A stretch of 43,475 nt of DNA. It comes from Anaerolineaceae bacterium (GTDB lineage Bacteria > Chloroflexota > Anaerolineae > Anaerolineales > Anaerolineaceae). A program made the translations under genes and the position numbers. Below the pieces are notes generated by a model, which saw only the letters and a list, made by a program, of their open reading frames with translations, made no database searches and was not told where the DNA came from. The stretch is taken from positions 1 to 43,475 of the forward strand of contig JAAZOQ010000305.1 in assembly GCA_012797695.1 (NCBI GenBank), given 5' to 3'. This document shows positions 25,406-27,776 of the stretch, piece after piece. Numbering within the stretch: position 1 is the stretch's first letter; the number at the start of each line of letters is the position of its first letter.

Positions 25406-26551
25406 ATGGCGAACAAAGACTTGTACGTCGAATTATGCAAGTTCTACGAGTTCATGCTGGGGGAAATTCCACAAAAAGACGAATTCATCAAGGCATTGAA
25501 AGAAACGGTAACGGAAGATGATTTGCGTGTGCTGTTCTTGATGCCATTTAACGGCGCGATCTTCCACAATGATCTGGTCAAAAAAGCTGCCAAACATGGT
25601 ATTGACGAGAAAACCGTCAAAGAGGCAGCGCTTCGCATGGCTGCTAAAGGCTATGTGCTCACCTACGAAACGACCCGCGGCCGTGCGTATGAACGTGGGA
25701 ACCCAGTTTTCATGACCGAACAGCAAGTGCGCAGCCAGGAAAAATCACAGGCCCGCTCAATCTTTGCCAATTTCATGGATTCCATGATCGAGGCAGATTC
25801 TGTCGCCAACCCCAACAAGACCCCATACTATCGGGTTTTGCCGGTGGAGTATACTCTGACTGGCAAGATCCCCGATGACGCTATCCGGTTGGATGCGCCG
25901 GTGCCCGATCAGAGGCAGGTCTTGCCGATCGACGTTGTAACCGATATGGTCAATGCCCAGGATGTGGTGGGAGTAGCTGAATGCTTCTGCCGTAAAGCAC
26001 GTGCGGTGGTTGGCAAAGCCTGCGAACATCCACTGGAGACCTGTTTCGTTTTCAATGAATTTGCTGAAGGGTTAATCGAAGCCGGGCTGGCCAGACAACT
26101 GACCAAACCTGAGGCGCTGGAAATTCTGCGTCATTGCGAAGAGGTTGGACTGGTTCATAATGTCGATAACGCTGAGGGACATCTTCGTACTCTGTGTAAT
26201 TGCTGTTCCTGCTCCTGTGTAATCATGAATGCCATTCATCATGGCTCTACCAGTTCTGGAGCACCTTCTCGCTACGTGGTGAGCCATGACGCCGTCAAGT
26301 GCATTGCCTGCGGTGCCTGCATCGATATTTGCCCTGTTGATTGCCGCGAGATCGTGGATGGCAAAATGGTTGTTAATATTACCCAATGCCTGGGCTGCGG
26401 CCTATGTGTAACCAAATGCGAACAGAGTGCCAACCACATGGAGCCGCGCAAGAAATATCCCAAAATCTATCCCACCCATAAAGCCTTATGGGGGCAGATT
26501 GGCAAAGAGTCGATCGTGAGTATTTTGAAGAGCAAAATACTGAGCAAATAG
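25406..26551 (+). CDS. 4Fe-4S dicluster domain protein with winged-helix-like N-terminus and central Cys-rich region
   Basis: CIACGACIDICPVDC and CLGCGLCVTKC; additional CFC...C...C and CNCCSCSC motifs. Confidence 0.85.
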   Translation: MANKDLYVELCKFYEFMLGEIPQKDEFIKALKETVTEDDLRVLFLMPFNGAIFHNDLVKKAAKHGIDEKTVKEAALRMAAKGYVLTYETTRGRAYERGNPVFMTEQQVRSQEKSQARSIFANFMDSMIEADSVANPNKTPYYRVLPVEYTLTGKIPDDAIRLDAPVPDQRQVLPIDVVTDMVNAQDVVGVAECFCRKARAVVGKACEHPLETCFVFNEFAEGLIEAGLARQLTKPEALEILRHCEEVGLVHNVDNAEGHLRTLCNCCSCSCVIMNAIHHGSTSSGAPSRYVVSHDAVKCIACGACIDICPVDCREIVDGKMVVNITQCLGCGLCVTKCEQSANHMEPRKKYPKIYPTHKALWGQIGKESIVSILKSKILSK

Positions 26552-26700
26552 TATTTCAGCCAATGGCTCAGTAAGTTTACTGCAAGATGCTTATGAGATT
26601 GGTTTACCAATTTCTGTCATTGAAATTCGTACTCTGTCAAACAAAGAAGTATTGTTTCGCTTTGTTCGCAGTGGATTGAAATCAGGAAACAAGGTTTGAC
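26552..26700 (+). pseudogene. Possible short coding remnant in the 5' region of hypA
   Basis: Open frame SANGSVSLLQDAYEIGLPISVIEIRTLSNKEVLFRFVRSGLKSGNKV* with no good start; loosely resembles a nucleotidyltransferase (MNT) C-terminus. Confidence 0.3.
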
Positions 26701-26708
26701 AGAGTACG
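26628..26708. repeat. 15-bp perfect inverted repeat with 51-nt spacer
   Basis: CGTACTCTGTCAAAC (26628-26642) and GTTTGACAGAGTACG (26694-26708). Confidence 0.9.
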
Positions 26709-27073
26709 TACGAATCAGAAAAGAGGGCCCTATTCACGAATCGGGTATTGCTGCCAATATCATTGAAATTGCAGAGAAAGCTGCAAAGAAAAACGGACTA
26801 TCTACGGTCAGGCGTGTGGATGTACAGATTGGCGCTTTTTCGGGAGTGGAACCCGAATTATTGACGTTCGCTTTTTCCGTCCTCAAAAAGAAGACGACTC
26901 TGGCAGAGGCAGAGCTGGAAATCATTAAGCTGCCGTTGCTCCTGTACTGCCGGGATTGTGAAACAGATTACGTGGGAGAAAGCGAAGATCTGCGCTGCCC
27001 GATCTGCCTGGGGGAAAACTATGACATCAAACAGGGCAGAGAGTTAAAGGTAATAGCCATCAGTGGAGGTTAA
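26696..27073 (+). CDS. hypA: Hydrogenase maturation nickel metallochaperone HypA (start uncertain: TTG 26696 or non-canonical ATT 26732)
   Basis: IHESGIAANIIEIAEKAAKKNG, zinc-site CRDC...CPIC; followed immediately by hypB. Confidence 0.9.
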   Translation: MTEYVRIRKEGPIHESGIAANIIEIAEKAAKKNGLSTVRRVDVQIGAFSGVEPELLTFAFSVLKKKTTLAEAELEIIKLPLLLYCRDCETDYVGESEDLRCPICLGENYDIKQGRELKVIAISGG

Positions 27074-27074
27074 A

Positions 27075-27776
27075 GTGACTGGAAAGGAAATTTCAAAGTC
27101 AATTAACGCGGAGCGTATCCGCGTGATCACGATGGAAGAAGATGTGCTCCAGAAAAATGACGAGATCGCGGCTGAAAATCGGGTCTTTCTTAAAGCGAAG
27201 AACGTGGTGGCAGTGAACCTGATCAGTTCACCAGGTTCCGGCAAGACCACTTTGCTTGAAAAGACCCTGAGTGATCTGGAAGGTAGATTGCGCTGTGCAG
27301 TGATCGAGGGGGATCAACAAACCAGCAATGACGCCAGCCGCATTGCGGCAACCAAAGTGCCCGTGGTACAGATCAACACCCTCTCGGGTTGTCATCTCGA
27401 AGCCGCTCAGGTGCGGTCAGCTATGCAAGAATTGCCGATGGCTGATATTGATCTTCTGCTCATCGAAAATATTGGCAACCTGGTTTGCCCCTCTGAATTT
27501 GATCTGGGCGAAATCGGCAAAGTGGCGATCATGAGCATCACAGAAGGTGAAGATAAACCGATCAAATACCCGCTTCTGTTCCATTTGGCTTCTGTGGTGG
27601 TGCTGACCAAGCTGGATTTATTGCCTTATTTACGCTTTGATTTAAAACGCTGCAAGGAATACATCCGGCAGGTCAACCCACATGCCGAGATCATCGAAAC
27701 CTCGGTGTTCAGTGGCAGCGGGCTGACGGTCTGGGAGGATTACCTCAAGAATCTGGTAAGTGTTTACCGCAAGTGA
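27075..27776 (+). CDS. hypB: Hydrogenase nickel incorporation GTPase HypB (GTG start after GGAGGT)
   Basis: VVAVNLISSPGSGKTTLLEKTL P-loop, EGDQQTSNDA, NTLSGCHLEA metal site, VVLTKLDLLPY. Confidence 0.95.
   Translation: MTGKEISKSINAERIRVITMEEDVLQKNDEIAAENRVFLKAKNVVAVNLISSPGSGKTTLLEKTLSDLEGRLRCAVIEGDQQTSNDASRIAATKVPVVQINTLSGCHLEAAQVRSAMQELPMADIDLLLIENIGNLVCPSEFDLGEIGKVAIMSITEGEDKPIKYPLLFHLASVVVLTKLDLLPYLRFDLKRCKEYIRQVNPHAEIIETSVFSGSGLTVWEDYLKNLVSVYRK

Follow-up and report, generated by a model that had tools for sequence, protein, structure and literature searches.

Initiation factor IF3 rejects AUH start codons (AUU, AUA and AUC), and infC, which is autoregulated by its own product, starts with ATT in Escherichia coli, ATC in Streptomyces and AUA in Staphylococcus aureus. 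To our knowledge, very few genes have been documented in which such a start codon is conserved. As ATG, GTG and TTG are the only starts allowed by standard gene callers, genes of this kind are mis-started in annotation. Among the described cases are ccpN (AUA) and cvfC1 (AUU) of Staphylococcus aureus (PMC13009471), rnhC (ATC) of Listeria (PMC13068326) and pcnB (AUU) of E. coli (PMC4245954). In each case a single gene has a fixed AUH start that its relatives share, an assignment based on ribosome profiling or reporters. A further point of comparison is Streptomyces sigR, whose GTC start was shown experimentally to be repressed by IF3 (PMC5472188); its operon partner starts canonically and the non-canonical codon sets the stoichiometry of the two products.

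Here we describe a hypA gene that very probably belongs in this company. HypA proteins begin with Met-His-Glu and bind nickel via the N-terminal amine and His2; in the Helicobacter pylori protein the insertion of a single residue (MLHE) changed the nickel site, and urease maturation is reported to require nickel ligation by the N-terminal amine (PMC7055735). With the N-terminus of HypA being its metal site, misplacing the start in annotation would cut off functional residues or bury them. As to genomic setting, the closest described locus is the isoprene reductase operon of Acetobacterium wieringae, which encodes an Fe-S protein, HypA and HypB (PMC10134865).

The window, that is the whole stretch of DNA analyzed, comprises 43,475 nt (positions 1-43,475, forward strand, of contig JAAZOQ010000305.1) from an Anaerolineaceae bacterium represented by a metagenome assembly of 440 contigs (GCA_012797695.1). 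Like the A. wieringae operon, it groups genes for HypA, HypB and a 4Fe-4S protein outside a hydrogenase operon (Table 1), but the likeness is one of gene content and, unlike in A. wieringae, no oxidoreductase gene adjoins the trio. The host genome codes for three more HypA paralogues, all with canonical starts, and one of these, started by ATG (L003; L143/L144, G000:C93), shares its contig with a [NiFe]-hydrogenase large-subunit gene; thus, the HypA of the window operon may serve another nickel enzyme. We also observed a homologue of the LarA-like nickel lactate racemase (Lar_N and LarA_C domains) at positions 1542-2810 of the reverse strand, about 23 kb from the nickel-chaperone genes. Based on the comparisons presented below, we propose with high confidence that the window hypA is translated from AUU at 26732, and that AUH initiation is an old feature maintained in a HypA subfamily linked to the Fe-S protein and HypB.

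Table 1. Features of the Fe-S/hypA/hypB locus, with positions in the window
Feature	Position	Strand	Remarks
Fe-S protein gene	25406..26551	+	381 aa; C-terminal 4Fe-4S domain; Pfam Fer4 above cut-off; ATG start; operon partner 5' of hypA
Spacer, Fe-S gene stop to hypA	26552..26731	+	180 nt; about 165 nt longer than that of the nearest relative (L006)
Inverted repeat, 5' arm CGTACTCTGTCAAAC	26628..26642	+	perfect 15-nt repeat (repeat search); fold z = -2.3
Inverted repeat, 3' arm	26694..26708	+	repeat search, folding; contains the rival TTG
Rival TTG start codon	26696..26698	+	would add 12 residues; not considered the main start
Shine-Dalgarno-like GAGGG	26723..26727	+	4 nt 5' of ATT; equivalent motif in 6/6 AUH relatives
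Putative ATT initiation codon of hypA	26732..26734	+	fMet predicted; corresponds to TIGR00100 Met1; ATA/ATC in orthologues
hypA	26732..27073	+	113 codons and stop; His2-Glu3 and two CXXC zinc motifs; TIGR00100, PF01155; dN far below dS in subfamily
hypB	27075..27776	+	GTG start at 27075, GGAGG upstream; TIGR00073 260.9 bits (cut-off 121.2)

A preliminary description of this DNA had noted ATT in the place of HypA Met1 and GAGGG 4 nt upstream of it; CCCT separates the two, and profile comparisons confirm the placement of ATT. The protein matches NCBIfam TIGR00100 with 98.8 bits (cut-off 88.1), residues 1-110 aligning to model positions 1-111, such that model position 1 falls on the residue encoded by ATT and leaves no room for an extension, and the Pfam HypA domain (PF01155; 103.1 bits, cut-off 28.9) begins at His2. 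In an alignment of the subfamily His2 and Glu3 of the MHE motif are invariant, as are C73, C76, C89 and C92, which constitute the two CXXC zinc motifs. Furthermore, the subfamily is under purifying selection (dN 0.10-0.19 versus dS 0.68-1.37 for the closer pairs), and dN is far below dS over codons 2-28 as well, which supports translation of the N-terminus of hypA. The first canonical start codon downstream of the AUH codon lies 11-29 codons in, and we reject a start there, as it would delete the nickel-binding His2-Glu3.

We then looked for orthologues, first among 151 relatives and then by scanning 84,980 genomes and searching further groups. The first search recovered two orthologues reading I-H-E, both with ATA, namely L006 (63% identity) and L008 (46%), the latter being the same locus as L015 of Leptolinea sp. 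UBA4782. The genome scan and group searches added L011 and L012 (ATA) and L013 and L054 (ATC), all four from MAGs of Bacillota or of their class, as well as L014 and L020 (ATG). A separate scan of viral contigs yielded no relatives. In a maximum-likelihood tree of 61 HypA proteins, nine members (L001, L006, L011-L015, L020 and L054) from Anaerolineaceae, another Anaerolineae order and Bacillota MAGs form a clade with support of 100/99. Codon 1 is AUH in seven of the nine (ATT in the window, ATA in four and ATC in two) and ATG in the remaining two, whereas all 112 HypA loci outside the clade (52 in the tree and 60 further) have ATG or GTG. This contrast (Fisher p about 6e-10, a figure that ignores the relatedness of the members, which are a small, related set of metagenome-assembled genomes with non-independent counts) strongly supports the rare ATT initiation envisaged in the preliminary description, which had also proposed examining this codon in related genomes. 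At most three label changes on the tree are needed to account for the seven AUH members; accordingly, the AUH start would be either ancestral, with two reversions to ATG, or gained more than once. The members from Chloroflexota and Bacillota are interleaved in the clade, which suggests horizontal transfer of the Fe-S/hypA/hypB unit.

Since ATT, ATA and ATC are the three isoleucine codons, their conservation is not decisive in itself, and the residue could in principle be a true internal isoleucine, with HypA being a continuation of the Fe-S protein reached by stop readthrough or frameshift. In addition to the synonymy of the three codons, this idea draws on the spacing of the two genes, which are separated by 12-18 nt in five members, including L006 (14 nt before ATA) and the Bacillota representatives, and on L012, where the two frames coincide across a single TAG. 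However, the relation between the frames is inconsistent: in L013 they coincide across a TAG and a TAA, in L006 and L011 they differ, in the window the genes are 180 nt apart, and in L015 no Fe-S gene is present upstream of hypA. With the frames and the stops, both in count and in type, varying in this way, readthrough or frameshifting common to the members is excluded. What is retained instead is a Shine-Dalgarno motif 4-6 nt from the AUH codon in all seven cases, with duplex energies of -5.2 to -8.9 kcal/mol; a duplex of -5 kcal/mol or better is found in 45% of the other hypA genes (p = 0.005, with a cut-off chosen post hoc), and the difference in mean motif strength that might indicate compensation in AUH-started hypA is not significant (p = 0.09). 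Moreover, the six AUH relatives all lack an upstream ATG, GTG or TTG in the hypA frame, and in L012, L013 and L054 an in-frame stop lies just five codons 5' of the AUH codon. Given the lack of upstream starts, the inconsistent relation to the Fe-S gene and the positioning of the Shine-Dalgarno motif, we consider it very likely that the AUH codon serves in initiation and most improbable that it is an internal isoleucine.

In the window itself the hypA frame opens 36 codons 5' of ATT, and the only ATG, GTG or TTG in this interval is the TTG at -12. The preliminary description had offered it as an alternative start, yielding a HypA in which the extension MTEYVRIRKEGP precedes IHES and alters nickel binding. 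It is an accepted start codon, in frame and with AGG/AAGG stretches upstream, and could still see partial use. Against its being the main start, no relative has the extension or an upstream canonical start, the segment lies within the part of the spacer that is missing in L006, the nearest relative, and the codon itself forms part of the 3' arm in a 15-bp hairpin that includes neither GAGGG nor ATT; the effect of the MLHE insertion and the role of the N-terminal amine in urease maturation (PMC7055735) also speak against an extended form. We therefore regard it as very unlikely. A sequencing or assembly error that turned ATG into ATT, a sequencing error having also been raised earlier and the source being a metagenome assembly of 440 contigs, is refuted for the subfamily and, for the window, less credible than any other explanation, the equivalent codon being ATA or ATC in six independent genomes.

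The sequence harboring the TTG is a local peculiarity. With an inverted repeat and a short open frame, the 180-nt spacer looks like the remnant of an inserted gene or element. Of 172 tiles of 500 nt taken across the window, 8 contain a perfect repeat 15 nt long, which makes such repeats uncommon but not unique. The spacer had no match to an Rfam family and no second copy in its own genome, arguing against a known RNA element or mobile repeat, and its short open frame ISANGSVSLLQDAYEIGLPISVIEIRTLSNKEVLFRFVRSGLKSGNKV had no Pfam match. As the TTG sits in a spacer and hairpin arm specific to the window, the putative extension would be a by-product of local sequence rather than a product of HypA evolution.

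Initiation at AUH codons, including AUU, is normally carried out by the initiator tRNA with fMet. Hence, while the preliminary description was very probably right to suspect an unusual initiation codon, the altered metallochaperone it considered alongside can mostly be set aside: if initiated at ATT, the window HypA would begin with Met-His-Glu and is probably a normal metallochaperone.

The host also provides an apparent instance of the classic IF3-controlled class. Its infC lacks a canonical start at the N-terminus before the conserved domain and has AAAAGGAG-CCAACT-ATC there, a leader very similar to that of the window hypA, and thus appears to start with ATC. This ATC is at L139:1480-1482 (G000:C74), and an internal ATG at L139:1510 is the likely pick of gene callers, with loss of the conserved N-terminus. 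Like hypA, infC combines an AUH start with a good Shine-Dalgarno motif and the lack of a usable canonical start, but as HypA is not a translation factor any control of hypA would have to act in trans. The canonical starts of hypB, the Fe-S gene and the three further hypA copies argue against a genome-wide AUH habit. Across the clade operons hypB and the Fe-S genes start with ATG or GTG, save for L077, a genome with an ATG-started hypA, where TTG is the only candidate; in this pairing of a non-canonical start with canonical partners hypA resembles sigR, from which it differs in using AUH instead of GTC.

In light of the rejection of AUH codons by IF3, we posit a translational throttle as the simplest mechanism. 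The GAGGG motif would place the ribosome at AUU 26732, where the initiator tRNA would pair at two of three bases, and the product would start with fMet-His-Glu and retain the normal N-terminal nickel site. Translation of hypA is likely to be reduced relative to an AUG version, such that the AUH start might throttle HypA in comparison with the ATG- or GTG-started genes of the operon and render its output dependent on the level of IF3, as for infC and the GTC-started sigR; the AUA-started ccpN of S. aureus (PMC13009471) is a further parallel for such a throttle.

A genuine but simply tolerated AUH start, ATG having decayed under weak selection on hypA and relaxed demand, with no regulatory role, is about as likely as such a throttle; we give this an even chance. 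It is consistent with the two ATG-started clade members, which indicate that AUH is not essential for the protein, with the host's further hypA paralogues, one of them on the [NiFe]-hydrogenase contig, and with the in-frame stop found in each of two Fe-S genes upstream of AUH-started hypA. These stops, a TAA at codon 185 (L078:1333-1335) and a TAG at a glutamine position, codon 106 (L072, G586), may reflect a pseudogene, an assembly error or recoding. On the other hand, the AUH codon persists through saturated synonymous divergence with A, T and C swapped at its third position, and the Shine-Dalgarno motifs and codons 2-28 remain constrained. On balance, functional IF3-dependent control, as opposed to a tolerated weak start, is possible and somewhat the less probable reading of the sequence comparisons.

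Given infC, pcnB, rnhC, ccpN and cvfC1, genes with AUH starts are already known; what is new is that hypA joins them, and does so in two phyla with the three AUH codons freely exchanged. A literature search that covered few subscription journals gave no report of an AUH-started hypA. Strong Shine-Dalgarno motifs are shared with ccpN and cvfC1 of S. aureus, and conservation among relatives with these as well as rnhC and pcnB; unlike those four, which have experimental backing, the hypA start is deduced from comparison, and it differs from them in occurring in two phyla with interchanging codons. We tentatively suggest that start-codon discrimination by IF3 acts constantly on this HypA subfamily, whose AUH start, kept in two phyla, would couple nickel-cofactor delivery to the ratio of IF3 to ribosomes in the cell and hold HypA at a lower level than HypB and the Fe-S protein; HypA would then be the first metallochaperone controlled in this way. 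The subfamily offers a compact, testable example of the identity of a start codon being used, or tolerated, as an expression setting beyond translation factors.
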